This document shows positions 17,355 to 44,905 of a stretch of 45,188 bases of DNA, one piece after another. Location of the stretch: IMG/VR virus record IMGVR_UViG_3300021181_000018, positions 1-45,188 of that record; one strand, 5' to 3'. Within the stretch, counting starts at the first letter, position 1; each line of letters starts with the position of its first letter. Origin of the DNA: a virus. The notes beneath the pieces are model-generated. The model was not told the DNA's origin and ran no database searches. It was given only the letters and a program-made list of their open reading frames with translations. The position numbers and the translations under genes are program-made.

Positions 17355-17558
17355 CTAGGGCACAAAGTAAGGTGATTCCGGATCATTGCTTCCGCCCGGG
17401 GTCGGGCCTTCGTCCGGGGTTGAATCCACGGCCACTATCGCAGCCTTCGTCGCAGCAGGCTTGTTCTTGTGGTGGAAAATCTTCTCGAATAGTAGGATGA
17501 CGTCGGGCTCGAGCTTGACGCCTAGCGTGATCAGGGCTGCGATGACTGCGGGGCTCAT
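17355..17558 (-). CDS. Small hypothetical protein, possible membrane-associated helix
   Basis: 67 residues, ATGA-coupled to the lipoprotein gene. The first 28 residues are hydrophobic or amphipathic (MSPAVIAALITLGVKL...VILLFEKIF), followed by a basic HHKNKP and a Pro/Gly-rich tail. It may be membrane associated. Function unknown; its lysis-region position is the only clue. Confidence 0.58.
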   Translation of the reverse strand: MSPAVIAALITLGVKLEPDVILLFEKIFHHKNKPAATKAAIVAVDSTPDEGPTPGGSNDPESPYFVP

Positions 17559-18142
17559 CGCAGGTGCAGATGCTCGGCCATCGTGAGCTTCATCTGCATC
17601 TCAGGACGTCCGAACTGTCGGCAGAGGGTGTTGAACTGGCGCTTGAAGTCGCCCGACGAGGTTGCATACTTGCGCGGCTTGGCTCCCATCACGGTCGTAG
17701 CGGGCAGCGCTCCCCCGCCCCAGTCTTCATGGCCGGAAAGGTTAACTGCGGTTGCGGAAGTCGCTGCCTTGTTCGCAACGATGGCCTGATAGGTGCCGAT
17801 GGACAGGTCTAGGATTGCGACCGCCAGCTTGACGTCGTTGTTGTTCGACACCCCGAGGTCGGTCTCGAGCTGCCCTGCTACCGTTTCCACCACGCCCAGC
17901 TTGGCGCTGATAGTGGCATCTCCCTGAGCTGTGCCGATAGCTGCCGCAAGGTCGTTGACCGCGGCGTTGATTTTAGCCTCGTCGGCCGCGACTGCGGGTG
18001 AGGAGTTCGGCGCCACGAGCGCGAGAACGCCGTTAAGTGCCGATTCAAAGATTGGCAGGTACGAAGCGAACGTCGCCGCCGAGCATCCCACCACTAAAAC
18101 TGCCGCGAGAATTCCAACTGCTAGTTTCTTTTTGCCTTTCAT
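17555..18142 (-). CDS. Putative lipoprotein (195 aa)
   Basis: From ATG 18142, which overlaps the previous stop (TAATG) and has GGAGG ten bases upstream. The N terminus is a type II signal peptide: MKGKKK, a hydrophobic core and a VVGC lipobox (Cys20). The mature protein is helical and Ala-rich (about 70-150), with a C-terminal charged part. It would be anchored in a membrane facing the periplasm. Next to the endolysin it could serve in lysis (outer spanin-like) or exclusion, but it is much longer than usual o-spanins. Confidence 0.65.
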   Translation of the reverse strand: MKGKKKLAVGILAAVLVVGCSAATFASYLPIFESALNGVLALVAPNSSPAVAADEAKINAAVNDLAAAIGTAQGDATISAKLGVVETVAGQLETDLGVSNNNDVKLAVAILDLSIGTYQAIVANKAATSATAVNLSGHEDWGGGALPATTVMGAKPRKYATSSGDFKRQFNTLCRQFGRPEMQMKLTMAEHLHLR

Positions 18143-18345
18143 TATTTGGAACCTCCGCCTTGAGTGATAACCAAAACTCCGTCCGTACTGACGGAACACA
18201 TAGAACTGGGAATGCAAAGAATCTGATGGACAGGTGTGCCGTTGAACATCGTCACGACTGAAGTGCCGTGACTCTTGGATTGAGCATGCAACCCGATGGC
18301 GAAAGCAGAAGCGACCAAAATAAACATAGCAGCTATCTTTTTCAT
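18142..18345 (-). CDS. Small secreted protein with Sec signal peptide
   Basis: 67 residues, ATGA-coupled to the endolysin gene, with AGGAGG upstream. Signal peptide 1-21 with an H-A|Q cleavage site; the ~46-residue mature part has exactly two Cys (ILCIPSSMC), suggesting one disulfide in the periplasm. It lies between the hydrolase and the lipoprotein gene. No family recognised; it may modulate lysis or the cell envelope. Confidence 0.65.
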   Translation of the reverse strand: MKKIAAMFILVASAFAIGLHAQSKSHGTSVVTMFNGTPVHQILCIPSSMCSVSTDGVLVITQGGGSK

Positions 18346-18773
18346 GTTGCCGAATCCTCCTCTTTCAGTTTGTAAAATCTCAGCCTGCCCACCGCCAAAG
18401 TCAGTGTCATGCTTCCCGCCCAGATGGGTGTGGGTATGGAAATGTCGAAATAGCTCGTTGCGCCTTGCGTGATGTCGGAATCGCCGTTCACCAGCACGTC
18501 TTCGCTGACCGTGAGGCTGTCCGAGTAGGCCGGGTCATTATCCGCGGGCCACTGGTCCGCATTGGGATCCCCCGGATTGAAGCTCGAGAACTGGTAGCGC
18601 TCGAGGATGACCGTGCTGACGGAATGGCCCCACCAACTGGGATTGTCGGAGCGGTTTTTCACCACATGGGCCACGCCACGCTTTCCCAGCAGCCCTTCGC
18701 CGCGCGCTTCGCGCCAGACGCAGAGGCTACAGAGTTCCAGGTCGGAGAGGTTTGAGTACGGCTGTGGGTTCAC
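18342..18773 (-). CDS. SleB/Hydrolase_2-type cell-wall hydrolase (endolysin)
   Basis: 143 residues. The GTG start at 18773 lies just after the upstream TGA. The segment CVWREARGEGLLGKRGVAHV (18-37) followed by VKNRS matches the SleB-like hydrolase family, in which the Glu of the REARGE block is catalytic; a later YQFSSFNPGDP and a run with D-P-x-Y-x-D also fit. It cleaves peptidoglycan glycan strands. No signal peptide is present, so release by a holin is expected. Adjacent small membrane genes support a lysis cassette. Confidence 0.82.
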   Translation of the reverse strand: MNPQPYSNLSDLELCSLCVWREARGEGLLGKRGVAHVVKNRSDNPSWWGHSVSTVILERYQFSSFNPGDPNADQWPADNDPAYSDSLTVSEDVLVNGDSDITQGATSYFDISIPTPIWAGSMTLTLAVGRLRFYKLKEEDSAT

Positions 18774-19284: not shown

Positions 19285-21417
19285 TTATTGCACCGCGATG
19301 CTGGGAAGCGCACCGGGCGAAAGCGTCACACTGGTAAGAAACTTCTGAAACACCGCTCCATTCTTGGAAACTCCGCAGCCATCCGTGCCGCAACACAGCT
19401 GCGTCTGATTGGCGACGGCTTTGCAGAAATTAGCCATCGTCAGAGTTCCGCTCATCGAGAACATCGTCGCCGGCGCCGGAGGAGTTGCAAGTCCCGTCCC
19501 AGTCAGCGTAGCCGCCCCGCTCCCGGTTCCCGTCACGGGCAGGGTGACGGTGTAAGTTAGCTGCGCCGTGCGGACGCCGGTATTGAGCGGCACGAAATAG
19601 GCCGTCACGGTGCAACTGCCGCTGCCCGGAATCGAAGTTCCGCAGGTATTGTTTATCAGCGTGAATTCGGTTGGATTCGTGCCGGTGAAGCTGAAGGACA
19701 ATCCCGTTGCGGACCCCGTGCTGCCATTTGAGAGCGTGAAGACTTGGCAGAGAACCGAAACTCCCAGATTCGAGTTTGGGCAGGTTGCGGTGCCGGGGGA
19801 AATGGTTACGGTGCTTTGGCTGCCGCCCGTCAGAGGATGCGGGTAAGTGTACGGCGTGTAGTAGCTGGCCCACGTTCCCGACTGGCATTGCCAGAGCGTG
19901 TTCGCGCTCGATTGCCAGTATGCCGTGAAGTTCGTGCAGGTTGGTGCGCCGGAATAGGCGCCTGAATTTGTTGGCGCGAGCGTACCATGTCCGACTCCCG
20001 CTGTACCGTTGAACGTGGTGGAAGGCTCGCTGAAATTCGGAAGTTCTAGGAAGTAATCTCTATTTTCTTGAATCGTGAATGCGCTGTTGGATGTGGCGTA
20101 GCCATTCGCACCCGTTGGCGCGGTAAAGGAATTGGCGAACACGTAGTAGGGGTCTTGCACATTGTTTGGCCACGAAGCAACGCCAGTGACGTTATTTATT
20201 TTTCCGCTTCCGAACGGTGTGAAATATCCACTCAGAAGCTGGCTTTGTCCGCGCCCTACTTGGTCAATCGAGGGCCAGCAGATGGGATTGGCAGAGCCGT
20301 TGTCCCAGGGGCTAGTAGTCTGCCCTTCCGCAGTGGCCGTGGTTGTGCCGCAGTATCCCCAACCGGCAGGATTCTGAGATTGTGCGTGCGGCTCTCCCGC
20401 GCTTTCATTGGTACGATCCTGCGCGAAGTTTGCTACCTGCTTATAGCCAACAAGCGTGTTGTTGTAGATAAGCCCAGTGCCCATCCGGGTCTGCACGAAG
20501 AATGCAAAGTTGGTCGTGTTGGGATTGGTGCTGGCGGTTGCGGTATTGTTATAAACTTCAACTGCGCGGCATCCCCGGAAGTCGCCTTCCATCTCGTGCG
20601 TCTGGAAGTAAATCAGGCCGACGATAAGGTTGTAGCGGAACACCGCGCGGCCTGCGTCGTTGCAGTCATTAACCGTTCCGAAATCGGCGGAAGGATTCGA
20701 GGTTGCTCCCAGCCAGTTGAAGGTATTGTTTTCTGCGAAAATAAACTGGCTGGTGCCGAAGTGGTCCGTGTCCGCCCAAGAATTGTTTCCAACTGGCCCT
20801 CCCGAGCCTGTCTCGCCATTCCATGCAGGCTCGCCAAAGCGGAATCCGTTGGTATCGCTGTAGAACTCGTCAATTTGATTGTGGTCTTCTACTCCCTCAA
20901 TCCAGCCTCCGAATGTCACAAATACAAGATTCAGTTGGTCCAAGTGGTTGTGATCTAAGCGGAAGGATGTGGACGTGCCGCCGAAACGCAGGAATCCGGC
21001 GAAGCTCTGCGTCGTGTTCGACGGACTCATAGCAATGTGGCAGCCCGTCATGCGGAAACTCTTGCCAGCAAGGAGCGTTATCGCCATCTCCGCAGTATCC
21101 GAGCTGCTGCGGTTGATGTTGTCGAGAATGGTGGTCTGGTCCGTGCCGATTGGAGTCGCTGAGGGATACCCGGACGATTCCGCGCCCGCGCAGTTGATAA
21201 CCATCGAATTCGTCTGCGTGTAGGTAATACCACTAGTCCATGTTGTGCTACTGGCAGGGACATTCAGCGTCGTGCCGTCCATGTTGATGCTGTTGAGCGC
21301 GGCCTGCCATTGGGTAGGGCCATACGGTGCAGCGACCGAGCAAGTCGTCACGCCAGCGCATTGCGCGTGGAGCGCGGGAGCCAAGAGCAACAGCAGAAAT
21401 GGGAGAAGTTTTTTCAT
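19285..21417 (-). CDS. Secreted beta-helix fibre/spike-like protein with choice-of-anchor-like C-terminal domain
   Basis: 710 residues from ATG 21417; the frame above it is antisense-like. Signal peptide 1-18 with H-A|Q cleavage. Residues ~60-400 show repeated short Asn-rich turns (FAENNTFNWLG, RLDHNHLDQLN, YNNTLVGY) typical of a right-handed parallel beta-helix as in pectate lyases and tailspikes. Residues ~550-660 resemble a choice-of-anchor D/Ig-like domain. The mature part has 18 Cys, an even number, including a C-terminal LCCGTDGCG. No catalytic dyad can be assigned confidently; a depolymerase or adhesin is likely. It is last of four exported fibre genes. Confidence 0.75.
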   Translation of the reverse strand: MKKLLPFLLLLLAPALHAQCAGVTTCSVAAPYGPTQWQAALNSINMDGTTLNVPASSTTWTSGITYTQTNSMVINCAGAESSGYPSATPIGTDQTTILDNINRSSSDTAEMAITLLAGKSFRMTGCHIAMSPSNTTQSFAGFLRFGGTSTSFRLDHNHLDQLNLVFVTFGGWIEGVEDHNQIDEFYSDTNGFRFGEPAWNGETGSGGPVGNNSWADTDHFGTSQFIFAENNTFNWLGATSNPSADFGTVNDCNDAGRAVFRYNLIVGLIYFQTHEMEGDFRGCRAVEVYNNTATASTNPNTTNFAFFVQTRMGTGLIYNNTLVGYKQVANFAQDRTNESAGEPHAQSQNPAGWGYCGTTTATAEGQTTSPWDNGSANPICWPSIDQVGRGQSQLLSGYFTPFGSGKINNVTGVASWPNNVQDPYYVFANSFTAPTGANGYATSNSAFTIQENRDYFLELPNFSEPSTTFNGTAGVGHGTLAPTNSGAYSGAPTCTNFTAYWQSSANTLWQCQSGTWASYYTPYTYPHPLTGGSQSTVTISPGTATCPNSNLGVSVLCQVFTLSNGSTGSATGLSFSFTGTNPTEFTLINNTCGTSIPGSGSCTVTAYFVPLNTGVRTAQLTYTVTLPVTGTGSGAATLTGTGLATPPAPATMFSMSGTLTMANFCKAVANQTQLCCGTDGCGVSKNGAVFQKFLTSVTLSPGALPSIAVQ

Positions 21418-21427
21418 TTTGTCCTGA

Positions 21428-22891
21428 CTATTTGAAGCAGACCGCGTTACCCGCGCTTGCGGTGTTCTGATTGGTAATCCACTCGATTGCAGCACCTGTT
21501 CCAGCACTCGCTCCGTAGTAAGTTCCGGGAAGAAAGACTTCCGAGGCGGAGTCATTCAAGATGTACGTTCCTCCGCCTGGAGCAACGGTGTAAGCGAATG
21601 GATACGATTGGACTGTAATTACTCCGCCCGTACTCCAGACACCCTGAAAGCAGGCATCATTGGAGCCTGTCAGGGAAAGCGCAGGCCCCGTCAAATATGC
21701 TGGCGGGGCTTCACCGGCCATTTGTATCGAGCCTTGCGCGTCCAAGGTCCAGCTTCCCCCGGTGCGAGCTACCTCGAATATGCCGACGCCAGTAGAACTG
21801 TTCGCGGTCATGGTGATCGAGAGAGATGTCTTGCCTCCCGCCGTGACCGTGTAGGCGCAGGTAAGGGATTGGGCCAGTGAAGTGGTGGTAATGTTCGCGC
21901 CGCTGGTTCCTGATGTGGAGCAGTTCGTGAATGTGTCGCCGCCGTCCGTGATGGAAGAGAAGTAAGCGGTTGCGGTTGCGGTCGCGCCCGCTACGAACAG
22001 CAAGTTCCCGTTCGTGGTGGACGGAATAGATATGGTGCATGTGGGATTGCAGGCCAGGTTTCCCGCATTGGTAACGATGGTGAAGTTGACGAGATTGAAA
22101 AGAGGCGTCGTGGTGGTGAAGGTTCCCGCCGAACTTTTGAATGCGAGCGCGGAGAATGGAACCGAACCAGCCGCTGCCATCGTAAGCACTGGCGCGGAAA
22201 GAGAACCCGGTGCCACGTTCTGCGCGAAGATGCTGTTCGCGTGGTCAATAAAATAAGGTGAGCTGACGGAGTTCCATGCGTTCACGAACTGCGCGGCGTT
22301 GAAAGCGCCTTGAATGATTGCGTCCGTTGCCGTAGTGGTGAGTGCAACGCCAGAGCAAGTGGTACAGCTCGTGTTAATCACGGAGCCGGAGGCGTCAAGT
22401 CCCGTGACTGTCTGACCAGGAGGCGGGGCGATCTCAACAAACTCAGCGGAGTATTCTCCCGTGGCACTGCCCGAGAGCGTGACGCTTACCTGCTCCGTGC
22501 CAGCGGTGTGTCCCGTTTCCCATTCGGCATCCACGCTGCCGCCCGTTGCATTGAAAGCGTTGCAGAGTTCGTTGAATGAACCGCCAGCGGGGCAGGCATG
22601 AAATGTCGCTCCCGTAATACTCGCCGATGAGATGTGGACGTTATTCCCCGTGTAAGTGAAAACTACCCCTACGCTTCCCGCCGTCATCGGCAAAACGTTG
22701 AAGGTACAACCTGTTCCTCCAGTCGCGCAGCCTGATGCAGCGCTGATGCTGCCAATGTCCTGCAAAAGCGTCCAGCCAACCGGGATGGCTGCGCTGCCAC
22801 TCTGCGCGTTCTGTATTCCGTACAGGCGTTGCGCGCGGCAAGGAAGAGCGAAAGCGAGAAGCAGCAAGATGAGTTTTATTTTTCTGTGCAC
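21428..22891 (-). CDS. Secreted Ig-like/adhesin protein with duplicated domain
   Basis: 487 residues; GTG start directly after the upstream TGA with GGAG six bases before. Signal peptide 1-20 with R-A|Q cleavage. Two halves look like copies of one beta domain: each has a leading hydrophobic strand, paired Cys (SGCATGGTGC; LACNPTC), a long Thr/Ser-rich strand region and an E-V/E-I-A followed by G-x-x-L-D-A-x-G-S. The mature protein has 12 Cys. Such domains occur in bacterial secreted proteins and phage fibres. Probable fibre accessory or adhesin. Confidence 0.7.
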   Translation of the reverse strand: MHRKIKLILLLLAFALPCRAQRLYGIQNAQSGSAAIPVGWTLLQDIGSISAASGCATGGTGCTFNVLPMTAGSVGVVFTYTGNNVHISSASITGATFHACPAGGSFNELCNAFNATGGSVDAEWETGHTAGTEQVSVTLSGSATGEYSAEFVEIAPPPGQTVTGLDASGSVINTSCTTCSGVALTTTATDAIIQGAFNAAQFVNAWNSVSSPYFIDHANSIFAQNVAPGSLSAPVLTMAAAGSVPFSALAFKSSAGTFTTTTPLFNLVNFTIVTNAGNLACNPTCTISIPSTTNGNLLFVAGATATATAYFSSITDGGDTFTNCSTSGTSGANITTTSLAQSLTCAYTVTAGGKTSLSITMTANSSTGVGIFEVARTGGSWTLDAQGSIQMAGEAPPAYLTGPALSLTGSNDACFQGVWSTGGVITVQSYPFAYTVAPGGGTYILNDSASEVFLPGTYYGASAGTGAAIEWITNQNTASAGNAVCFK

Positions 22892-25800
22892 TCAGTTCTC
22901 CGTCCAGGTTCCTTTGTTCGGATACACATCCCAGTGCGTGGAATCTATGGCGATAAAGCAGGCGGAATCCGCTGCGGCCCCACCAGAGACCACACCATGC
23001 GTCCCGCCGCCGCCGACTGTGTTGACTACCCCATTCAAAATCACAAAGGAGCCGGACGGAGGGTAAACGGTCAAAACTCCGGTATCAGGAGCGCCTGAGC
23101 CGCTGACGATGCTGTTCTTGACGCAATATTGCAGCCCCGCAGCAGTTGCAGGCAGCGTGTATGTGACACCCGCACCCGCCGTGGCCTCTTGATTGAAGGT
23201 GTAGCCGCCCTGATAGGTTCCAGCGCCCAGCGTGGCCGTCGTCCCTGTCGTGATCGTGACTGGGGCTTTTCCATCCGAGATGCCGCTGACGAGAAGCGAT
23301 GTCGCTGTCGCAACACCTAGGCTGGGAGTCGTCAGTGCGGGCGAAGTCAGAGCCAATCCAGAGGGGAATGAAATATTGGAAGCGGTCAGAGCGCTGAGAT
23401 TGAATATTGCCGATGCTCCGCCTGCCAGCGTGTGCGTGGCATAGGTGAAATCTCCGTTGCCTGTGGCCGGCGCGCCACCAGCGCCTCCACCTGTCATCAG
23501 ACAGTTCGTGCAGAGGAGCGCGGAGGCAGAAAGCGTCGTGGAGTTGCTGAAATATGGGACCGCGCCAGAAACGCCGCTGGTAACCGTGGCCGGAAATGCG
23601 AGGCCAGAAGTGATTGTGCATGTCGAGCCGAGCGTGCAAGTCACGCCGTTAACGGTCGTGGCAGGATTCGAGAGCATTGCATTGGTGACAGGGCCGGACG
23701 TGCAGATTTTTGAAGTTCCGACAAAGGTGCATACATTGTTCGCTGTCGGAGCTATGGACATGGTCACCACATTTGCTGCCACAAGCCCCGAATCAGCGGG
23801 AATATTTCCAGCGCCGAAGGAAACTAGGTGACCGTTCGTGCCAGCGAAAGCTGTGTTATTGATTGCCGTACAGGTGAACGCGAGCGCTCCTGCTGAGTTC
23901 GTGCAATCTCCCGTGAATGCGGGCATCGAAGCCGCAGCCAACCTTCCGTTGGAGTCCGTTCCCGGAATTAGCGCGGACCAGTAGTTGTTGCTGGAATCGG
24001 TCCACACGAAAGCGCATGGCGGGTTTGTGTTCGCGGCCGCTCCCTGCAACACGAGCGTTGCTCTGCTGTTTATGGTTGAGGTCGTGGGAGTCGCTGTATT
24101 GACAACCGTTCCGGTGTTGCAGAGGACGAATGTGAAATTCGCGGACAGGCCGGAGCCCGCAGGAATGGAGGTTGCGGTCGAAGTCGTGCCGTTCGAGGTC
24201 TGCACTACTCCCGCGAGGTTCGCTTGTGCCACGGAAGGCGTTGCGCTTGCTGACGCGCTCACTGGCACACCGGGCAGCATGACTGTCGGCGCGACACTGG
24301 AAGCGCCGGGAACATTAAAGACGACACTGTAGGTTCCGGGCGTGACCGGAGAATTCAGTCCTCCGAAAGTTCCGCCGCCAGCGTTATACTGCACCGCATT
24401 CGTTGACCCGCCCGGAGAGCCTCCACCGCCGCCGCTTCCCACCACGCAATCCACTCCCGCGCAGAGGACGTGCGTGTTTCCCGTGCTTGAATCAACTCCG
24501 ATTTCCGATGAGCTTGTTGCCGTGAAGCCCGCGGCTGTCGGAAGTTTTATCGTGGAGTTGGCGAAGTTCTCTTGGTGCGCGGGGAAAATGTCCGGGCATT
24601 GCGGCGACGAAGTGAAGGTGCCTGTCGCGGAGCGCCAGTACCAGCCGAGCAACCCGGATTCACCTGCGGACGTAATCGTGCAAGGATTCGTCGAACTGTT
24701 GTCTTTCAGGATGTTGGTGAGGTTGGAATTCGGCGCGGAGATATTTTCCACCAGGATGTTGGTGCTGTTCGTGGAAGCAAGGTCAATCGCCGAAGTCATG
24801 GGCTTGCCGGATGTGCCCGTAAATCCGTAGTTGCCGATGAAGATGTTGTGCGCGAGATTGTTGGCCCCGATTTCGATTCCTACCGTGGTGTTCTCGCAAT
24901 GGCCTGATTCCAGCCACAGGTCCACGATGAAATCTATCGTCATGCAATCCACTTGCGCGGCTGCGTTCGCGGTCCCGCCAGCGGAAAGTTGAATGGCACT
25001 GGTGTTTGCAATCGTCTGAGAAGTGCCTGCGATGCCGAACTGGAAGTTGATTGCGGAGGTCGAATTGACTCCGTTCATTCCCGCGACAACGCCGATGAGT
25101 GGCCCCATGTTCTGCGCTGCGGAAGTTCCCATGCTGAAATCGAAGGCGGAGCCGCCATCCAAGAAAACATCTTCAAGCCGCGTTCCCTCTTGGCCCCACA
25201 GGTTCTGATAGACCGTTCCCGCTGCGGGATTTGAAGTTCCGCCAGCAGTCGTGTACATCGAAAGCCGCACATGCTCCAATGCAACGCTGCCAGTGTTCGC
25301 GGTCGTGCCTACCTGAAACAGCGTGGAGCTGCCCGGAAAACTCGTCGTTGCCTGAATGGTTGAGCCGCGCGGCGTGCCCACGGGAGAAGAAACCGGGTGT
25401 GCGGAGCTTCCCCTAATCAGCAATCCATTCTGCGCGACCCAGGTTGTCGAAGCCTGGAACTGCGCGCCGCCAAGCAATAGAGTTCCGCCCAAGCTCGTGT
25501 CATTTCCGAGAGGGCTTGCAGCGCAGGAAGGCGTTCCCGAGAAAGCGCGTGCGTCGTTCACTCCGCCCAGAGAAGAGATGCCGCCAGAGATAGTCGTCCA
25601 GTTCGTGTTTATCTTGGCGCAGTCGTCCGCTCCCGTTTGCACCGAAGCATCGCTCTGTTGCGGGGAGGTCGCATAGGTCGTGGCACCGTTCGTGTTAATG
25701 AATGGCTGCCCTTGGGCTCCACTGGGCAGGCTGCCTCCGCCGCTTGAGCATCCTACGGTCGTGAAGTCCCCGCCTGAACCATTCGGGCAGATTGGGCTAG

Positions 25801-28561
25801 TGCCTGGAGTTAGAGCGTTGTCTATGAAATTATTCGCGGTCAGTGCTCCGATGATGTCCGCGTTTCCGTTTACGTCTAAGTTATCGGACGTGGATGGCTG
25901 GCAGAGCATGTTGACGCCAAGGCAGGGACCGCCGCCGAATTGAATCAGCCCGACGTTCTGCCCGATTTGAGGAGCGGCGGTGCCTAGCCACGGCTGATTG
26001 CCAACCCAGTTAACCTGAAGCGCAGGGACGGCTGCCCCCGTGACGATTGCAGGCCTACCACCCGTCTCGCCGCTGGTATCCGGCAGGAAAGACAATACGG
26101 CGGTGAGCTGCGCCCCCCAGTTCGCAACCATCGCAGTCGTGCTGGTGTCATTGGCACCTGCTTCGATAGACAGGTCAACGTTGTTACCCGGCCCGAATAT
26201 GAATACTGGAGCGACAACTTGCTGGTTGTAATTGGTATAAATCTGGATTCGCGCGTTAGAGCCCAGCGTCGGGTTGCTCTCCCATCCGAAGCAGCGCCCC
26301 ACGCAGAAAATATTATCCAGAATCATCGAACCGGCACCGTTCACACCGGCCATGTCGTTTCGTTCTAGGAGTAGCGGTCCAAAGAAATATCCGAATCCCG
26401 ATGAATTGTTTGTGGAGAACAGAGAGTCGTGAAACTGAATGCCGTAAGCGCCGTAGGAAACGATGCATTGCCCCACCACGTCATTGCTCGGCAGGGCGCA
26501 GGAATAATTATCGAATCTGCTGTTCGTCTGCCCAGATCCGGTAACAGTGGCCGCTAGGCCGTTGGCTTGCGCCGAAATGTTGGCATGCCTAACATGGTCG
26601 GTTCCCGTGAAGATGACGCCGGGGTATGCGCCTTCAACGACGATGCACGCTCCCTCGCCATAATCGAACTGCGGCGAGCCGCAAGGTTGCCCTCCTTGAG
26701 AACCATTCCAGTTTATGTTTGCAACTGTCAGCGCTTCATTGACGAACATCTCTCCCGCAGGAGTTACGGCTGTCGCTTGGCACAATGTCGGAGAGTTGAT
26801 GTAGTAATTGCTGTTCTGCGCCGGAGTCGAAATCCTCATCGGGCCAAGAGGATTTGCTGCGGCGCAAGCTGCGGAGAGCGTTGGTCCATCATCGAAGTAA
26901 GCCGTCAATCCCGACGCGCTCTGCGTGGCCGCATTCGCTACAACGACGCTTGAAGTTCCGCCTCCAGATACAATGGTTGTCGAAAGTGCGCCAAGCCCAG
27001 CGGAAGCCGGTGCGCTGGCGGGATACCACGCATTGCGCGTAGGAGCCGCAGCGCCGAAGTTCGTCCAGTTCACTTCCCCCGGCCGCGTATAGCCCAGGAA
27101 GGAACCAGAGGCGGTGTAAATCAGGTATTGATAAACGCTCGCGTTGGAAGGGAAAGTCAGTTTGTCCACGCTGTAAACGGAGGCTGTTCCGCCCGTGGCC
27201 GCATTCGTTGAGTTGCCGCCGCCTTGCAGCGGAATCGGTAAAGTGGTGCTATAGCCCTGTGAGTAGCTGATCTGCGTCGTAAAGATGGGAGACGTTCCCC
27301 CGTTGCAGAGCGTGATTTTGAAGAAACCGCTGAATGTCGAATCGGTGGAATTCGTATCGTAAATAATCGCGCCCACCGCGCAAGGCAGAGAGCTGGCGAG
27401 AGTGATGGTGACGGTTTGCCCCGACCGCGCTTGGCTGGTCATGTTGGCGGTCAGTTTGCCGAGCGTGTTTCCTGTGGTCGTGGTGCCTGTACTGCTGCAC
27501 GCCGTGTAAGCTCCGAAAACATTCGCATCGCGCGCCGATTCGCAATAGCTGCGCGTGGTGCTTCCAGCGGGAGCAACAACCGTGTCATTCGGCGTATCCG
27601 GGCCGGAAAGCAGCGAAGGCGTGACGGTAGGGGCGGAGGGAGTAGAGAGAGACGTCGCGGCCCCGGCGCCAGGAATCATGATTCCATCGCCATTCTTGAA
27701 GCTCGCAAAGCTGCCGCCCGTGAAAGAGATTGCCGTCGTGCCATTTACTGTGGCCGTTGCGGTGAAATCCGACGTCACTGCGCGCATGTTGTACTGGCAG
27801 GTGGCAATCCAGGGCTCGGGGCCTTTCACGCAGTCATTGCCGGGGATATTGAGATTGTTTCCCGTGGCATCGGTTGTGATGTTGCTGCCCTGCGCGGTGG
27901 CGGAGGTTCCATTGTTGGGCTGATAGAAAACCTGGAATTGCGGGCTGGCGACCACTGAGCCAGAGCCGCTTCCGCTGCATGAGCCTGCATCATTGAAAAC
28001 CAGCGGGGCGATCGAGAGAATTCCGACGCAATCTCCAATTGTAAAAGTGCCGGAAGTTCCCGCGACGTTCAACCCTCCCACTTGGAGGATATTCACGAAA
28101 TTATTTAGCGGCCCAGTGAACGTGTTCGATAGCGGCCTGATGTCAATGCCACCTCCCGCAGTAATCGTCACGGAGAATGGCCCGATGCTGTTGCCATTGG
28201 GAATCGTGATGGTGAAGGAGTAGGTTCCGGGCGCAACCCACACGCCCCAGTTTCCGAAGGCATCAGTCGTGCCGACGCAGGTGCTCGTGGTTGCCAGAAC
28301 AATCTGCGTGGATGTGGGGCAAGGAACGGAGAGAGTCGCATCCGTGTACGTCTGGGCCTTGTTCGTGCAAGGTGCGCCATTCGCCGGCGAGTTGCACCAG
28401 TTGATGACGGCATTCGGCACGGAGAAAATGGGACCACCCGGAGTCTGCCCGGACTGCACGGGCTGCTGATCTCCGAAGCGTTGTCCCTGCCCGAACGCGC
28501 TCGCCGCAATCAGCAGAAAAGGAATCAGCAGAAAAGGAATCAGCAGAAGTAGGCGCTTCAA
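22892..28561 (-). CDS. Giant secreted tail-fibre/adhesin protein (1889 aa)
   Basis: TTG start overlapping the previous TGA (TTGA) with GAGGG seven bases upstream. Signal peptide 1-24 (repeated LLIPF core, A-F-G|Q). Residues ~40-135 form a beta domain ending in WVAPGTYSFTI, like phage fibre N-terminal modules. The centre (~500-1250) is Asn/Gly-rich with tailspike-like beta-helix segments. Around 1390 is a NAVQYNAGGGTFGG fibre motif, and the last ~120 residues (GTYQGGYTFNQEA..., YCVKNS, THGVVSGGAAADS) resemble a fibre tip. There are 44 Cys, arranged mostly as 22 near-neighbour pairs. A likely host-recognition fibre, unusual in carrying an export signal. The TTG start may keep expression low. 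Confidence 0.78.
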   Translation of the reverse strand: MKRLLLLIPFLLIPFLLIAASAFGQGQRFGDQQPVQSGQTPGGPIFSVPNAVINWCNSPANGAPCTNKAQTYTDATLSVPCPTSTQIVLATTSTCVGTTDAFGNWGVWVAPGTYSFTITIPNGNSIGPFSVTITAGGGIDIRPLSNTFTGPLNNFVNILQVGGLNVAGTSGTFTIGDCVGILSIAPLVFNDAGSCSGSGSGSVVASPQFQVFYQPNNGTSATAQGSNITTDATGNNLNIPGNDCVKGPEPWIATCQYNMRAVTSDFTATATVNGTTAISFTGGSFASFKNGDGIMIPGAGAATSLSTPSAPTVTPSLLSGPDTPNDTVVAPAGSTTRSYCESARDANVFGAYTACSSTGTTTTGNTLGKLTANMTSQARSGQTVTITLASSLPCAVGAIIYDTNSTDSTFSGFFKITLCNGGTSPIFTTQISYSQGYSTTLPIPLQGGGNSTNAATGGTASVYSVDKLTFPSNASVYQYLIYTASGSFLGYTRPGEVNWTNFGAAAPTRNAWYPASAPASAGLGALSTTIVSGGGTSSVVVANAATQSASGLTAYFDDGPTLSAACAAANPLGPMRISTPAQNSNYYINSPTLCQATAVTPAGEMFVNEALTVANINWNGSQGGQPCGSPQFDYGEGACIVVEGAYPGVIFTGTDHVRHANISAQANGLAATVTGSGQTNSRFDNYSCALPSNDVVGQCIVSYGAYGIQFHDSLFSTNNSSGFGYFFGPLLLERNDMAGVNGAGSMILDNIFCVGRCFGWESNPTLGSNARIQIYTNYNQQVVAPVFIFGPGNNVDLSIEAGANDTSTTAMVANWGAQLTAVLSFLPDTSGETGGRPAIVTGAAVPALQVNWVGNQPWLGTAAPQIGQNVGLIQFGGGPCLGVNMLCQPSTSDNLDVNGNADIIGALTANNFIDNALTPGTSPICPNGSGGDFTTVGCSSGGGSLPSGAQGQPFINTNGATTYATSPQQSDASVQTGADDCAKINTNWTTISGGISSLGGVNDARAFSGTPSCAASPLGNDTSLGGTLLLGGAQFQASTTWVAQNGLLIRGSSAHPVSSPVGTPRGSTIQATTSFPGSSTLFQVGTTANTGSVALEHVRLSMYTTAGGTSNPAAGTVYQNLWGQEGTRLEDVFLDGGSAFDFSMGTSAAQNMGPLIGVVAGMNGVNSTSAINFQFGIAGTSQTIANTSAIQLSAGGTANAAAQVDCMTIDFIVDLWLESGHCENTTVGIEIGANNLAHNIFIGNYGFTGTSGKPMTSAIDLASTNSTNILVENISAPNSNLTNILKDNSSTNPCTITSAGESGLLGWYWRSATGTFTSSPQCPDIFPAHQENFANSTIKLPTAAGFTATSSSEIGVDSSTGNTHVLCAGVDCVVGSGGGGGSPGGSTNAVQYNAGGGTFGGLNSPVTPGTYSVVFNVPGASSVAPTVMLPGVPVSASASATPSVAQANLAGVVQTSNGTTSTATSIPAGSGLSANFTFVLCNTGTVVNTATPTTSTINSRATLVLQGAAANTNPPCAFVWTDSSNNYWSALIPGTDSNGRLAAASMPAFTGDCTNSAGALAFTCTAINNTAFAGTNGHLVSFGAGNIPADSGLVAANVVTMSIAPTANNVCTFVGTSKICTSGPVTNAMLSNPATTVNGVTCTLGSTCTITSGLAFPATVTSGVSGAVPYFSNSTTLSASALLCTNCLMTGGGAGGAPATGNGDFTYATHTLAGGASAIFNLSALTASNISFPSGLALTSPALTTPSLGVATATSLLVSGISDGKAPVTITTGTTATLGAGTYQGGYTFNQEATAGAGVTYTLPATAAGLQYCVKNSIVSGSGAPDTGVLTVYPPSGSFVILNGVVNTVGGGGTHGVVSGGAAADSACFIAIDSTHWDVYPNKGTWTEN
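28508..28548. repeat. 15-bp tandem repeat inside the signal peptide of the giant fibre gene
   Basis: aatcagcagaaaagg occurs twice in tandem with an 11-base partial third copy. The unit is exactly five codons, encoding LLIPF on the minus strand, so copy-number change would lengthen or shorten the hydrophobic core in frame. Confidence 0.85.
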
Positions 28562-29784
28562 TTTCTTACCCTCACATGCAGAAATAGCTGTCTAAGAAAA
28601 ACCAGATTCCCCGCAGTCATGTTCGTGGTGATTACGGTCGGAGAGGTTCCAGTAATGATTCCGCCTGGAATCGGGAAAGTCGCAACGGTAGTCACTACTG
28701 CTGGCGTGCTGCTGATGACCGAGAGCAAGCCTTGCGGAGAACTAATACTGGAGAGCGCAATCGAAAACCTGACTTCGTAAGTCGTGCTTGCCGCAAGCGT
28801 GAAGCTCCCAATCGAATTACCGTTCACCTCTATTGCTATCGTCGGAGCCGTGCTGGTGAAGCTGACGCTATCGAATTCCGTCTCGCCTTCGATGAATGAA
28901 CCTTGAGGCAGCGCAGATTGCACTCCGCCAATCGGGATAGTCGCGGTTTGAAGCGTCGCAGGGGCTGACAAGCCGAAGAGCTGAGTGGGAGCGTAGTTGT
29001 CATAGTCCGCAATGACGGCGCTGGGCGGGCCGCTTATCGTCACGCCGTTGATAACTGGATTCGTCAGGACTGGCGCAGTCAGATTGCAAGGCACAGTTCC
29101 CGATAAGCAGACATTTCCAGATGAATCGGGGAAATTATAGATTCGCTGCGCGGTGTTGGAGTTCGTCAGTTCCGACTGAAAAACAGTGCCGCCAGTGAAA
29201 AACAAGCCGGTAAAAATTTGCGGCACAGTCCAAATCTGTTCCGTTCCTGTAAAAGCGAATGGCGTGCCGGTATAGAGCAGTGCATCTCCTGAGTTTTTGC
29301 TGATGCAATCATCAGCGCTGTTTCCATTGTTGCGCCAGCAGATTTGATCGCCGCTTGCCATGCGCAGAAAGCCGGAGAGCGCGGGATTCGTGCTTGCGGA
29401 TTGGAAGAAAGTTGCGGTTAGGCTCGTCACCTCCGAAGGCAGCGCCGTCACGTTGAGAATCTTGTACTGCTGCGTCATGGAGGAATTGAAGACTGCGATG
29501 TCCACCGGAGTTGATGGCAGCCAGATTGAAGCGAAGCCTCCACTGTCGAGCGTGATTGGATTGGTCGCCTGGCTGCTGCCCGTAGAATCGAGGTAGGTGG
29601 GGCATGGCGTCGAGGTTCCAGCGCAATAGACCGAAACGAACCCTCCGCTCAAAGGAGTGCCGCTGGCAGAAAAGAATTGCTGTCGGATCGTCGGTGACAA
29701 ACTGACTGGCACTTGCGCCGAAAGGCTGAAAGCACCCAGGCAGAGCAAGACGGCGACGCAGCAGGCGCGAAGGACTGTTTTCAT
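28558..29784 (-). CDS. Secreted tail-fibre/spike protein with P22-type head-binding-like domain
   Basis: 408 residues from ATG 29784. Signal peptide 1-23 (S-L-S-A|Q). Residues ~29-95 match the pattern of tailspike/fibre N-terminal virion-binding domains: F-S-A-S-G-T-P-L-S-G-G, then Y-x-A-G-T-S-T-P, T-Y-L-D-S-T-G and ITLDSGGFASIWL. The rest is beta-rich with a Cys-paired segment and a jelly-roll-like C terminus. The mature part has six Cys in three close pairs. It should attach to the tail, yet it has an export signal. It is the first of four coupled exported genes. Confidence 0.78.
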   Translation of the reverse strand: MKTVLRACCVAVLLCLGAFSLSAQVPVSLSPTIRQQFFSASGTPLSGGFVSVYCAGTSTPCPTYLDSTGSSQATNPITLDSGGFASIWLPSTPVDIAVFNSSMTQQYKILNVTALPSEVTSLTATFFQSASTNPALSGFLRMASGDQICWRNNGNSADDCISKNSGDALLYTGTPFAFTGTEQIWTVPQIFTGLFFTGGTVFQSELTNSNTAQRIYNFPDSSGNVCLSGTVPCNLTAPVLTNPVINGVTISGPPSAVIADYDNYAPTQLFGLSAPATLQTATIPIGGVQSALPQGSFIEGETEFDSVSFTSTAPTIAIEVNGNSIGSFTLAASTTYEVRFSIALSSISSPQGLLSVISSTPAVVTTVATFPIPGGIITGTSPTVITTNMTAGNLVFLRQLFLHVRVRN

Positions 29785-34153: not shown

Positions 34154-34413
34154 TACGGCCAGAAGATTTTTTCGCCAGTCGTTTCGTCAATCGCTGCTAC
34201 CCAGCCCTTCGGCGTCACTGTGTCCACTGGAGCATCAGCGGAAATTCCCGGCAGAAGCGCGGCCACAAAGAGAATTGCTTGCAGCAATGCTTGCTGAAAC
34301 TGAATCCACGCGCGAGTGAGGGCATTGGTGAGCCTGCCGTTCTGGTCTGTTACTAGAGGCGCTGTCTGAACCGGAACCGTTGAGAGTTGCTGGAGAGCGT
34401 TTCCTGCTGGCAC
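34144..34413 (-). CDS. Hypothetical virion-module protein (89 aa)
   Basis: GTG start overlapping the upstream TAG (TAGTG) with AAGGTGA before it. The N-terminal half has a helix with a hydrophobic stretch (QALLQAILFVAALLPGI); the C terminus has a compact P-K-G-W-V-A-A-I-D-E-T-T-G-E motif. It sits next to the gp10-like gene and its last bases overlap the convergent homing-endonuclease-like gene by ten. Function unknown. Confidence 0.6.
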   Translation of the reverse strand: MPAGNALQQLSTVPVQTAPLVTDQNGRLTNALTRAWIQFQQALLQAILFVAALLPGISADAPVDTVTPKGWVAAIDETTGEKIFWPYYQ

Positions 34414-35915
34414 TAACTCACCTTCCGCAACTGCGCCGCATAACGTTCACTCGTGTCATAAGCAGGCGAAGCCTTCAGATACGCATCCACGATTCGATAC
34501 GGAATGGGATCGCTGCACGACAATTCATAGGTCCGCTGCCGTGAGCGTCCCAACCTGCGCCAGATAACGCGCTTCGTGTACTCGCCTGCCGCACCAACAC
34601 TCTTTTCGTACTGATTGCTCCATGAATGCGTGCCGTCATCGGACCAACGGAGAAATACTTGGGGTGCGCGGGGCTTCCCTTGCCCATCGAGTAGCGGGGG
34701 AATTGGCCCTAAGCCAACTTCCATGTCAACCTGCAGTTGCTCGTGATAGACCCATTCGAGTTCAGTGCCGACTGTCGCTGCGCGACGCACTCTGCGAATC
34801 GGATTGCCGAAGTCTGTGTAGATGTTGAGGGCTTGCTGGTAAATATTCCCCGTCGCCCAGTCACCCACGAGGTGCATTCCGAACGCGTAGAAGTGGCAGC
34901 GCGCGCGATCTGCCGTGAAGACTCCGCCATTCCAGAATCCGCGCTGGTGCCATTGGCCGCTTGCCGCGTCATAAATCCACGTTGCATTTCCCGAAGGAAA
35001 ATAAAGGTGCCAGAACGTATGACCCTCTTCCTGGTACGTGAAGGAAATTGCATCAGTGATTCCGGCCGGATACTGCGCCCAAGCATGCTCTGTTGCGAAA
35101 GTACTCACGCGCTGCGGATTGTAGGCGTTGCCACGCCATGCGATTCCCGCGCCTCGGTCGTCGGCGCCCAGCCAAAACGGACTTCCATCCATGAAGCAAC
35201 CGGAATAGGTCGCACCGGATCCTGTTTCGATGAATCCACCGGAAACAGGCGCGAACGGCTGAATCGCCGCGCCTGAGTCGTAATAGACCGCCGTCTGCTT
35301 CGGACCTTGAAACCAAATCTGGCGATAGGCCGCAATCATTCCGACAATGAAATCGGGGAACACGGAAACGATTGCGGTGTCGAGCAACGGCCATGTCGTC
35401 GCATCGTCGGGATTCGACACTTGGAATTGCCCTGTGCCAGCGAATGTCGCCACGAAGAATCCGTCCAGGTAAACCACCTGCGAGACGACTGGCTGCACAA
35501 GCGTAGAAGTTGGGACTTGAAATAGCGTGTTCGTGGTGAAGTTCCAGACATACATCACGCCAGCGCTGATGAATACGATCTGATTCGGCCCCGCTGCCAT
35601 CGTTCCGTTATTAACCGATACAGGATTGTTGTCCGAAGCGATTGTCGCTAACGCAGTTGTGGTGCCATTCGCAAATATCTGATAGAAAGTGGCACCAGAA
35701 ACCGCGAAACACAGCCCTTGAAACTGAATTCCCCCGCGAACGGATGGACCGACTAGGCTGCAGAACAGTTTTTTGCCGGGAGTCGAGTACAAAGTGACCG
35801 CTGTACGTGCGCCAGATGATTCAGGATTCTCCGGGTAAAAATTCATCGCCATTTCCGCATCAACGTTGGGCGATTGGCTTGTGTAAGAGCCGTTGCAGAA
35901 CGCAAAACGGGCCAT
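34413..35915 (-). CDS. P22 gp10-like packaged-DNA stabilisation / tail protein
   Basis: 500 residues, ATG 35915. The N terminus FCNGSYTSQSPNVDAEMAMNFYPE is typical of the P22 gp10 family (a tail accessory factor that plugs the portal after packaging). Its body is beta-rich with a propeller-like run of W- and Y-rich strands, as expected for that fold. In P22 gp4, gp10 and gp26 close the portal, and a gp4-like gene lies just upstream here. No clear gp26 needle homolog was seen. Confidence 0.8.
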   Translation of the reverse strand: MARFAFCNGSYTSQSPNVDAEMAMNFYPENPESSGARTAVTLYSTPGKKLFCSLVGPSVRGGIQFQGLCFAVSGATFYQIFANGTTTALATIASDNNPVSVNNGTMAAGPNQIVFISAGVMYVWNFTTNTLFQVPTSTLVQPVVSQVVYLDGFFVATFAGTGQFQVSNPDDATTWPLLDTAIVSVFPDFIVGMIAAYRQIWFQGPKQTAVYYDSGAAIQPFAPVSGGFIETGSGATYSGCFMDGSPFWLGADDRGAGIAWRGNAYNPQRVSTFATEHAWAQYPAGITDAISFTYQEEGHTFWHLYFPSGNATWIYDAASGQWHQRGFWNGGVFTADRARCHFYAFGMHLVGDWATGNIYQQALNIYTDFGNPIRRVRRAATVGTELEWVYHEQLQVDMEVGLGPIPPLLDGQGKPRAPQVFLRWSDDGTHSWSNQYEKSVGAAGEYTKRVIWRRLGRSRQRTYELSCSDPIPYRIVDAYLKASPAYDTSERYAAQLRKVS

Positions 35916-35934: not shown

Positions 35935-36270
35935 ATGAATAGGCGTTCATTTCTTGGGGCGCTAATTGGCGGAATGGCAACCGCTGCCGCTGTCCGCACA
36001 TTTCCATTCAGAGTCTTCAGCTTCCCGTCCGAAGTTACTTCTACCGTTGCGCTAGACACGGCTTCGGGCCTCTCCGCGCAGTACAATCGCATCCTGACTG
36101 TTGACGAAATCACCAGACAACAATTCGCAATTCTCGTCTCTCACCTCAACTACCAGGAAACTTTCAACAGCGCATTGGCTAAGTACCAAGAAAGCTTTGC
36201 GAAAATTGGACAAGTTCTTCATATCAGAAAGCCGTCGCGCTTCAACGACTCTGCCCTGTTAGGTAATTAA
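35935..36270 (+). CDS. Twin-arginine (Tat) signal protein of unknown function
   Basis: 111 residues. The N terminus is MNRRSFLGALIGGMATAAAV, an almost canonical Tat motif (R-R-S-F-L-G) followed by a moderately hydrophobic stretch, so the product should be exported folded or cofactor-bound. The mature part is helical (LTVDEITRQQFAILVSHLNY) with no Cys. It is the only plus-strand gene in the tail/head module, with its own promoter, and overlaps the convergent minus gene end by 29 bases. Likely a cargo gene acting on the envelope; function unknown. Confidence 0.7.
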   Translation: MNRRSFLGALIGGMATAAAVRTFPFRVFSFPSEVTSTVALDTASGLSAQYNRILTVDEITRQQFAILVSHLNYQETFNSALAKYQESFAKIGQVLHIRKPSRFNDSALLGN

Positions 36271-37054
36271 AGGTTGTACGATGCCGCTCAAGTTGCGGAA
36301 TCCCCGCGTCTCGCGTTCCCATGCGTGGTGCTTCCTGATTGTTTCCCTGAATATTTCGGATGGCTTCTTTTGCGAGGCCCGCGAGAGTTGGATCCAGAGG
36401 CCTGCCGAATGACGGACACAGCGATACCGCGAGCGAAAGAATGATTGCATCTGCATAGCCCGGTGGCAGAGAAAGGAAGGCTCCGGTCAGCTGTACCTCA
36501 TTAATGATCGTGTCAACCCACAGCTCTACCGGATAATTGACCAGCGGCACTGGCCAGATGTAGAGCGAGCCATTCGGCCAATCGGGTGAGTAGAAGCAGT
36601 CAGTCGGCAGCGTTCCCGTGACTGCATACGCTCGTTTATTTGCCCACCAATCCGCATCCCGCACGTTCATCGGGTAGCGAATCTCTGGCGTGACCGTGTT
36701 CAGGATGATATTTGCGCGGTTGACCTTTACTGGCCGCTGATTGGCGGACCATGTGGCAGGAACGGCGGGAGGGCTAGGTTGTCCCGGCCCTATGGTGTGC
36801 GGCTGGAGGTTCGGAATGATGGTGTACTGATTGAAGGTTTCTGCATAAATGTAGCGGCGGTCCGCGTTCCAGTTATCAATCAGACGATTGAGCTTCTGGA
36901 GGCCTTGCGCCGCCTCCGCCGCAGACGGATTCTCACCTTGCGCGAGCGCACCGATCTCCAGCATTGCCGCAGAGATGATGTCTAGCGGAGTGAGGCTGCT
37001 AGTTCCGCCCGGTGCTGATGCCGGGGGACTGGGTGCCGGCAGGGGAACGGGCAT
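36242..37054 (-). CDS. gp4-like head-completion / tail accessory factor
   Basis: 270 residues, coupled to the upstream gene by TAATG. After a Pro/Ala-rich leader, ISAAMLEIGALAQGENPSAAEA (about 25-47) and L-x-x-L-N-R-L-I-D-N-W-N are the pattern of P22 gp4-like connector proteins, which bind the portal after packaging. A YAD and Gly-rich loop follow. Position beside the gp10-like gene supports the call. The lytic activity reported for P22 gp4 cannot be judged from motifs here. Confidence 0.68.
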   Translation of the reverse strand: MPVPLPAPSPPASAPGGTSSLTPLDIISAAMLEIGALAQGENPSAAEAAQGLQKLNRLIDNWNADRRYIYAETFNQYTIIPNLQPHTIGPGQPSPPAVPATWSANQRPVKVNRANIILNTVTPEIRYPMNVRDADWWANKRAYAVTGTLPTDCFYSPDWPNGSLYIWPVPLVNYPVELWVDTIINEVQLTGAFLSLPPGYADAIILSLAVSLCPSFGRPLDPTLAGLAKEAIRNIQGNNQEAPRMGTRDAGIPQLERHRTTFNYLTGQSR

Positions 37055-38010: not shown

Positions 38011-38883
38011 TTACGGGGCCTGATACCACTTGCCATCAGCTCCGTTCCAAACCCAACATTGCTCGACGCCCACGATCGCTGTGGTTGCCGCACCGATGTT
38101 GTTCGTTGCCGTGGTGGTGAAGATTCCGGTCGGGATGACGCAGAACTCACCGCCCACCTGGTTATTGGCCGTTGCCGCCCCGTTCAAGCCAATATTCCCC
38201 TTGCCTGCGAAGGTGAAGGATGTAATGGCGTTGGTGCCCGAAATCTTCGATACCGGGCCGGGTATGGCTTGCGCCCCCGCAGCAGATGCGACAGTGGAAA
38301 AGCTGGACCCCAAAGGAAGCAGCGGGTTATTGAAACCCGGAGTCCAAACTAGCGCTGTGGGATTGCAATACCACTGCGCCCCGCTTTTGATGTTGACCCA
38401 CGGAGAGACGAGCACGTTGTTCAGGACGCAGGGCGTGTTGCTGATATAGCCCGGTGAGCCCGGTGTGCCGCCTGGATCAAAATCGTAAAAATAAAACGGG
38501 TTTCCGAACAGGACCATAGCCCCCGAAGAATGCGGAGAGGCTACCGTTCCGCTCGCGCCACGTACCACTGTGAGCGTAGTGCCGTTCACCGCCACCACAT
38601 ACATCAGCTCTCGGTCAATGTAGACCGCCGTTTGCGATGGCTGCGATGCCACAACACCGAGGTTCGGGTTGAGCCCAACGATACCCGTTGCGCTCGCCAC
38701 GGAAATCGTGGTTGGCGCGGGAGTCAGCGGAGTATTTCCCTGTCCCAAGATGTTGCCGAGGACAGCCGCCGATAGGGTCGTTTGGCCGAGATAGTTCTGC
38801 TGTGCGAGTGAAAGTGAAGGAACACACAGCAACGCGAGTGAAACGGCGAGGTACTTCAGTGTGTTTTTCATGTTTACGCGCAT
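38011..38883 (-). CDS. Secreted structural-like protein next to the coat gene
   Basis: 290 residues from ATG 38883, with GAGG upstream, overlapping the coat gene by ten bases; an ATG at 38871 gives the same signal peptide minus four residues. Signal peptide with S-L-A|Q cleavage at about 27. The mature protein is beta-rich with a RGASGTVASPHSSG region like phage collar/decoration proteins and four Cys. A Sec signal on a gene fused by overlap to the major coat gene is unexpected. Confidence 0.72.
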   Translation of the reverse strand: MRVNMKNTLKYLAVSLALLCVPSLSLAQQNYLGQTTLSAAVLGNILGQGNTPLTPAPTTISVASATGIVGLNPNLGVVASQPSQTAVYIDRELMYVVAVNGTTLTVVRGASGTVASPHSSGAMVLFGNPFYFYDFDPGGTPGSPGYISNTPCVLNNVLVSPWVNIKSGAQWYCNPTALVWTPGFNNPLLPLGSSFSTVASAAGAQAIPGPVSKISGTNAITSFTFAGKGNIGLNGAATANNQVGGEFCVIPTGIFTTTATNNIGAATTAIVGVEQCWVWNGADGKWYQAP

Positions 38884-44337: not shown

Positions 44338-44537
44338 TTGCCGAGAATCCTGTTGGCCTTGCTGCGGATCCGTGCTGCACTTGCCGCTGACAGCTTGCCG
44401 CGCTTGACCATCTGCGTAGCGCGCGCCTTGGCGTTCGCTGCATGACTTCGATCTGGCATCGGGTATTTACGCGAACCGGGCAGGCCGAAAGTGCTGGATT
44501 TCAGCTTGTTGCGGGAGGCTGCTTTGAGCTTTGTCAT
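44334..44537 (-). CDS. Small basic phage protein with Pro-Asp-Arg-Ser-His-Ala motif
   Basis: 67 residues from ATG 44537 (TAATG overlap with the previous gene). The block STFGLPGSRKYPMPDRSHA followed by a helix N-A-K-A-R-A and a basic K-A-N-R-I-L-G-K end is a recurring small phage protein (DUF6582-like) often near head genes. Basic charge suggests binding to packaged DNA or capsid interior; this is inference. Confidence 0.7.
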   Translation of the reverse strand: MTKLKAASRNKLKSSTFGLPGSRKYPMPDRSHAANAKARATQMVKRGKLSAASAARIRSKANRILGK

Positions 44538-44905
44538 TAGTTGAAACTCACCGTCTGATCTGAGGCTGCTACCGTGTCCTGAATGCACAAACCGTTTAGG
44601 AAGCGGGCATCATAAAGCAGGCTTCCTGGTAGAGCTCCTGATGCTGGGAGGGTCAATACCGCGATAACGTTCGTGGAGGGTGTCGCGGTACAGGCGTTCT
44701 TGCCCAAGTCGAAAAGGGTAATCACGCCAGATGCTCCGGCCGTATTGATTGTCAGCGTGTGCAGTATTCCAGAGCCATCCTTGACTGCGGTTGCCGTCGT
44801 GCTGCCAGCCAAGTGCAGATATGAGAAGTTGGTCTGGTCTGCTAGGCACGGAGCATAGGCCATACAGAGCGCAAATATCAGTGCTGCCAGTCGCTTCAAG
44901 ACCAT
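44537..44905 (-). CDS. Secreted decoration-like protein next to terL
   Basis: 122 residues from ATG 44905 with AAGGAG; overlaps the terL stop by ten bases. Signal peptide 1-22 (basic MVLKR, hydrophobic core, C-L-A|D). The mature part is a single beta domain whose TTATAVKDGSGILHTLTIN, GVITLFDLG and F-L-N-G-L-C-I blocks match small phage head-decoration-like proteins that normally lack signals. Two Cys remain in the mature part, suggesting one disulfide. Confidence 0.72.
   Translation of the reverse strand: MVLKRLAALIFALCMAYAPCLADQTNFSYLHLAGSTTATAVKDGSGILHTLTINTAGASGVITLFDLGKNACTATPSTNVIAVLTLPASGALPGSLLYDARFLNGLCIQDTVAASDQTVSFN

Follow-up and report, generated by a model that had tools for sequence, protein, structure and literature searches.

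Tail fibres with predicted Sec signal peptides in a lineage of P22-like soil podoviruses

In the textbook view, tailed phages are assembled wholly in the cytoplasm of the host cell. Among the late phage proteins that use the general secretory (Sec) machinery of the host are spanins and exported endolysins, and pIII, the receptor-binding protein of the inovirus M13, has a cleavable Sec signal and periplasmic disulfides. Here we analyze a stretch of viral DNA of 45,188 nucleotides (IMG/VR virus record IMGVR_UViG_3300021181_000018, positions 1 to 45,188; hereafter the window), in which four consecutive genes of tail-fibre type, spanning positions 19285 to 29784 on the minus strand, are all predicted to encode proteins that start with a Sec signal peptide. 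In function, pIII is the closest parallel to these fibres, but it is unrelated to them: its phage is filamentous and is extruded without lysis, and the protein, the virion and the assembly are different. The window has no filamentous gene set, C-terminal anchor or extrusion, but instead the portal, coat and hub genes of a tailed phage. The periplasmic lysis proteins of phages, for their part, are lysis factors and not tail appendages. A signal peptide together with 4 or 2 cysteines is also found in BcepC6B gp19 (Burkholderia) and PBR31 orf035 (Xanthomonas), encoded beside a tail fibre or tailspike gene; unlike the window, however, these phages have one such protein each, their main tailspike lacks a signal peptide, and the fibre family is different. 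Ordinary tail fibres from phages of Pectobacterium and Klebsiella match the C-terminal part of PBR31 orf035 (L004, 14154-14963) and of BcepC6B gp19 (L267, 6001-7074). No report of signal-bearing or Sec-exported fibres of tailed phages was found in the open-access literature. The tailspike is a known kind of protein, and the export route is, as far as we found in that literature, new for tailspikes.

The four open reading frames lie on the minus strand at the positions given by an earlier, sequence-only reading of this DNA, and their parts are as follows (a slash marks the predicted cleavage).

28558-29784, minus strand: tailspike-type fibre with signal peptide, first gene of the operon, 408 amino acids, 6 cysteines after the signal peptide (sequence; homologues annotated as tailspike or tail fibre; P22 head-binding fold)
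29716-29784, minus strand: its predicted Sec signal peptide, 23 amino acids, ending LSA/Q (rule-based scorer, shuffle and internal-window controls)
29449-29712, minus strand: its P22-tailspike-like head-binding domain, residues 25-112 (alignment to seven annotated phages; AlphaFold2; Foldseek)
22892-28561, minus strand: giant fibre or adhesin with signal peptide, 1889 amino acids, TTG start, 44 cysteines (signal peptide in 7 of 8 homologues of the phage clade described below)
28490-28561, minus strand: its predicted Sec signal peptide, 24 amino acids, ending AFG/Q (rule-based scorer)
21428-22891, minus strand: fibre or adhesin with signal peptide, 487 amino acids, GTG start, 12 cysteines (sequence, scorer, cysteine count)
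22832-22891, minus strand: its predicted Sec signal peptide, 20 amino acids, ending CRA/Q (rule-based scorer)
19285-21417, minus strand: fibre with signal peptide, beta-helix-like by eye, 710 amino acids, 18 cysteines (sequence)
21364-21417, minus strand: its predicted Sec signal peptide, 18 amino acids, ending LHA/Q (rule-based scorer)

The chaining proposed for these genes holds as well. The first two overlap by 4 bp (28558/28561), the second and third abut (22892/22891), and 10 bp separate the third from the fourth (21428/21417), because of which the four look like a single, translationally coupled operon. All four N-termini have the build described for them, in which a few residues of basic character precede a core rich in leucine and an A/Q or G/Q site, the cleavage-like sites being LSA/QVP, AFG/QGQ, CRA/QRL and LHA/QCA. 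An alternative, longer reading frame of the last gene, starting at 21555, would bury the signal peptide and overlap the previous gene.

Signal peptides were called by a home-made, rule-based scorer with a threshold of 7, which requires a small residue at position -1. It called 8 of 8 known Escherichia coli signal peptides and none of 7 non-exported controls. The four fibres score between 9.4 and 10.3, with n-, h- and c-regions and an A-x-A-like site at the N-terminus. With composition-preserving shuffles of these N-termini, the observed score was reached 0 to 4 times in 2000. A scan of the interior of the four fibres, about 3,100 windows in all, gave no signal-peptide call, and positives on the minus strand of the 45,188 nucleotides were confined to real genes. 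Scoring and chance controls thus agree on Sec-type signals for all four genes, and no sizeable fibre gene in the window is without one. The residue at +1 is glutamine in 50 of 83 cases; cleavage-type A-x-A/Q sites, in which the small -1 residue is a requirement of the scorer, recur while the hydrophobic core diverges.

The position of the signal is most telling in the first fibre. Its residues 25-112 have matches in phages both cultured and metagenomic, where the proteins carry the annotation tailspike or tail fibre, and in seven annotated phages the initiator methionine of the same domain aligns with the predicted mature N-terminus of the window protein. The AlphaFold2 model of this region has a predicted local distance difference test score (pLDDT) mostly above 90, and a Foldseek search with it retrieved the P22 tailspike (1lkt, template modelling score 0.66 on the target, root mean square deviation 2.4; also 2vky), with further matches to the hub complex of Sf6 (Sf6 gp14N) and to the Pam1 and Pan3 tails. 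The modelled N-terminus is, therefore, a head-binding fold of the P22 type. By contrast with the seven relatives, a signal peptide of 23 residues precedes it; the P22 tailspike likewise starts at the domain, has no signal peptide and folds in the cytoplasm, whereas the window fibre combines a signal with cysteine pairs. According to this model, the protein is an otherwise normal particle-docking domain with a signal peptide added in front, because it is through this domain that tailspikes attach to the gp10/gp4 hub, and the window encodes counterparts of that hub.

Judged by its genes, the window is a P22-like podovirus. Its structural module includes a portal, a major capsid protein, a gp4-like adaptor, a gp10-like head-closure protein and a DNA-ejection protein, with matches to phrog_156, 283, 578 and 637, and it shares with P22/Sf6-type phages the head-binding fold, the portal/coat/gp10/gp4 gene set and the placement of the fibre genes after the ejection genes.

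34413-35915, minus strand: P22 gp10-like head-closure or hub protein, proposed docking site, no signal peptide (phrog_578, E=5e-100)
36242-37054, minus strand: gp4-like head-tail adaptor, no signal peptide (phrog_12985 and phrog_637)
38874-40124, minus strand: P22-type major capsid protein, basis of the clade tree (phrog_283)

The name of tail fibre is supported by homology and fold for the first gene; for the other three, which have no significant match to a Pfam or PHROG family, it was given from position and composition. For a fifth signal-bearing gene of the window, FibA, homology and fold again support the name.

38011-38883, minus strand: FibA, tail-fibre-domain protein with signal peptide, directly after the major capsid gene, 4 cysteines (phrog_1101 tail protein; homologues; fold)
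38803-38883, minus strand: predicted Sec signal peptide of FibA, 27 amino acids, ending SLA/QQ (scorer; alignment)

The AlphaFold2 model of FibA (pLDDT 83.6) retrieved the N-terminal domains of phage tail fibres from a viral fold library searched with Foldseek. In a sub-clade of relatives (L138, L144, L149, L151, L143 and L163) the gene after the capsid gene is a different, signal-less one (MATxSSxE...FSPLRGEPTMG...), perhaps the mark of a different host.

Conservation of the signals was examined across related phages. A scan of viral contigs with a single gp10-type protein gave no match, and an alignment was needed as query; the gp10 alignment found 80 P22-like loci, 77 of them scorable, and in 5, including the close relatives L012, L013 and L014, a gene on the structural strand carries a strong signal. 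An alignment of the capsid proteins of close relatives yielded 80 viral loci and 3 loci from metagenome-assembled genomes (MAGs). Among the homologues in these loci, signal peptides were called in 48 of 51 FibA proteins, 7 of 8 giant fibres (fib_22892), 4 of 5 first fibres (fib_28558) and all 4 copies of a small protein (44537-44905). The assembly proteins of the same loci are practically devoid of them: portal 0/64, scaffold 0/19, gp4 0/57, gp7 0/14 and gp10 1/50, with portal, scaffold and gp4 together at 0/140. Three capsid matches that scored positive were rejected as over-long reading frames extending into an upstream membrane-like segment. In the capsid tree, one clade with 100% support contains 76 loci, 54 of which are signal-positive, compared with 2 of 30 loci outside it; within the clade, some sub-clades have lost or lack the trait or have sequences too short to be judged. 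The near-complete genomes have a common layout, in which the ejection genes are followed by a head-binding fibre with a signal and then by one to several further signal-bearing fibres. Relatives whose protein begins only after the hydrophobic segment, which the sequence-only reading had named as grounds for abandoning its interpretation, are distant ones only, and these also lack the cysteines, a coincidence that supports export rather than refuting it.

Even numbers of cysteines are typical of exported, disulfide-forming proteins (PMC7678975). In the clade, the count is even in 73 of 81 signal-bearing proteins, compared with 107 of 191 for the cytoplasmic virion proteins of these phages. Clustering at 35% identity leaves a signal-bearing share of 28 of 35 (about 4e-4, binomial). 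FibA is even in 37 of 37 complete signal-bearing copies, and its second cysteine pair shifts position in the alignment as a pair. In the FibA proteins of L145 and L154 the signal is accompanied by two cysteines, whereas a close homologue (L150) has no signal and no cysteine. Scaffold and ejection proteins have almost no cysteines. The counts in the four window fibres (6, 44, 12 and 18), weak evidence if taken alone, fit the even, paired pattern in the mature part expected of a disulfide-bonded exported protein. The comparison extends to one and the same domain: among 65 distinct head-binding domains, cysteines occur in 20 of 20 versions with a signal peptide (19 called by the scorer and 1 judged by eye), usually exactly two, and in 2 of 45 versions without, for which the Fisher value of 8e-15 overstates the independence of the cases. 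Because cysteines track the signal peptide both in the fibres and in the same head-binding domain, genuine export to an oxidizing periplasm is likely.

The trait is not confined to metagenomic records. Tunturi 2 is an isolated podovirus whose host is the acidobacterium Tunturiibacter psychrotolerans (PMC11924767; the main text of that paper does not mention signal peptides). Tunturi 1 and 2 (records PP887698 and PP885685, 63-kb genomes) resemble the window in having large, consecutive fibre, tail-spike or virion-structural genes with signal peptides and, in gp12-14 and gp17, even cysteine counts. The signal-bearing genes gp12, gp13, gp14, gp16 and gp17 of Tunturi 2 have 20, 10, 20, 1 and 34 cysteines, and their counterparts in Tunturi 1, which carry signals too, 20, 10, 20, 1 and 32. 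In Tunturi 2, gp13 is annotated as 'tail fiber', gp14 as 'pectin lyase' ('tail spike' in Tunturi 1) and gp16 and gp17 as 'virion structural'. In Tunturi 3 and 4, the genes that were checked do not show it. The capsid and portal of Tunturi 1 and 2 do not match those of the window clade, and yet gp13 and gp17 of Tunturi 2 share segments with fibres of the clade phage L013, which suggests that fibre genes are exchanged between unrelated phages. Between Tunturi 2 gp13 and the L013 fibres the shared segments are 42-74% identical (loci L265, 13371-15398, and L211, fibres).

Three clade contigs lie in MAGs, two of them assigned to Acidobacteria (one to Bryobacterales) and one to Betaproteobacteria. 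The two Acidobacteria contigs and the fibre segments shared with Tunturi 2 make an Acidobacteriota host likely, while the Betaproteobacteria contig points elsewhere. Capsid-model searches of the two phyla to which the Bryobacterales MAG and the Betaproteobacteria MAG belong, covering 396 and 399 genomes respectively, found almost no further close members. Glutamine at +1 was considered as a mark of the host and is not diagnostic (9 of 30 in Bryobacterales, 7 of 22 in Betaproteobacteria).

Export of the fibres to the periplasm is well supported, with strong backing from the clade-wide conservation of predicted signals and the cysteine signature. We propose, with a probability of roughly 0.6, that the tail appendages are exported by Sec, that they are then cleaved and acquire disulfide bonds, and that they attach to the tail hub at lysis or later. 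The fibres would be made with an N-terminal Sec signal and cross the inner membrane, signal peptidase I would cut just ahead of the particle-binding domain, and folding with disulfide bonds would take place in the periplasm. Capsid, portal, hub and ejection proteins would meanwhile assemble in the cytoplasm. After holin and endolysin have joined the two compartments, the mature fibres, whose N-terminus would by then resemble that of an ordinary tailspike, could attach to the gp10/gp4-type hub of particles still lacking fibres. We infer this post-lysis docking, the preferred one of the fates suggested by the sequence-only reading, because a tailspike hub-binding domain stands directly behind the signal; attack on biofilm and manipulation of the host, also suggested there, gained no specific support. 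Late docking is physically plausible, since tailless particles accept P22 tailspikes in vitro.

The main competitor, in our view unlikely, is that the exported proteins do not belong to the virion and instead work during infection, in the periplasm or extracellularly, as secreted, phage-encoded depolymerases, adhesins or factors that mask receptors. Signal peptides and paired cysteines would suit any secreted protein, tailspike folds occur among the enzymes that bacteria secrete (PMC7949094), and three of the four fibres have no recognized virion homologue. Against this reading, a P22-type hub-binding domain is retained directly behind the signal, FibA adjoins the capsid gene in most relatives, and no signal-less fibre candidate of comparable size is left in the window to act as the receptor-binding protein. 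It is improbable that the N-terminus is an uncleaved, untranslocated anchor to membrane or particle, holding the fibres, for example, at the inner membrane until release: a hydrophobic helix could serve in this way, and cleavage is a prediction, but the recurrence of A-x-A/Q-type sites over a diverging core, and of even, paired cysteines mainly in the signal-bearing versions, points to translocation and cleavage.

A pair of products from each gene, one exported and one started internally without the signal and assembled in the cytoplasm, was tested and rejected as very improbable. Residue 25 of the first fibre is indeed encoded by GTG, where signal-less homologues have methionine. The signal-bearing head-binding genes have no conserved internal start that would give signal-less isoforms, however; a start codon near the mature N-terminus is present in only 7 of 19, a Shine-Dalgarno-like motif accompanies it in 0 of 7, and cysteine pairs would be of no use in the cytoplasm. 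Least credible of all is an artefact, through wrong start codons or through host secreted genes captured by, or mis-assembled into, a phage contig. The record is metagenomic, and TTG and GTG serve as two of the start codons, but the signals stand at the start of their reading frames with no better start downstream, and the repetition of the pattern in dozens of contigs and in the isolated Tunturi 1 and 2 refutes this explanation for the clade as a whole.

Several points weigh against periplasmic export followed by docking. The support is computational throughout, the signal-peptide calls come from a home-made scorer and not from SignalP, three of the four window fibres belong to no recognized family, and membership in the virion is deduced from one domain fold and gene position. 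Shared descent lessens the weight of the statistics: the head-binding tree requires only about 4 changes of signal state, 1 of them on supported branches, and an independent-pairs test was not significant, with too few supported changes. The docking of large fibres during or after lysis is known only in vitro, for P22.

The balance tips slightly towards a virion made in two compartments, with DNA-filled particles from the cytoplasm and disulfide-locked, Sec-exported fibres from the periplasm that are joined at lysis only, and towards a trait that spreads between unrelated Acidobacteriota phages. A lineage of soil tailed phages with cleavable-type export signals on its receptor-binding fibres challenges the view of assembly in the cytoplasm only. 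If the proposal is true, exported, disulfide-bonded fibres would represent a new assembly route and could account for the stabilization of fibres in harsh, acidic soils; the periplasm would contain unattached receptor-binding proteins before lysis, which would bear on superinfection, binding to debris and maturation of the particle. Tunturi 1 and 2 and their cultured host allow direct testing, and the combination of signal peptide and cysteine parity offers a new means of spotting such fibres in viromes.

The plus strand of the window, opposite the structural genes, contains at 35935-36270 an open reading frame of 111 amino acids that starts with MNRRSFLGALIGGMATA, a sequence resembling a twin-arginine (Tat) signal; no homologue of the frame was found among the clade genomes. 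In the scan of the window, the scorer called three genes in addition to the four fibres and FibA. These three, like FibA, had escaped the sequence-only reading, and they are listed here together with the endolysin gene.

44537-44905, minus strand: small protein with signal peptide, beta-rich-looking, 122 amino acids, 2 cysteines (4 of 4 clade homologues signal-positive; alignment)
17555-18142, minus strand: exported protein or lipoprotein of the lysis region, lipobox-like VVGC (scorer)
18142-18345, minus strand: 67-amino-acid protein with signal peptide, lysis region (scorer)
18342-18773, minus strand: cell wall hydrolase (endolysin), just downstream of the fibres (PF07486, 5e-13; phrog endolysin)

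The product of 17555-18142, encoded beside the endolysin gene, is a possible lysis-related lipoprotein. The gene at 18142-18345 sits between the endolysin gene and the lipoprotein-like gene, has a good Shine-Dalgarno sequence and encodes two cysteines.

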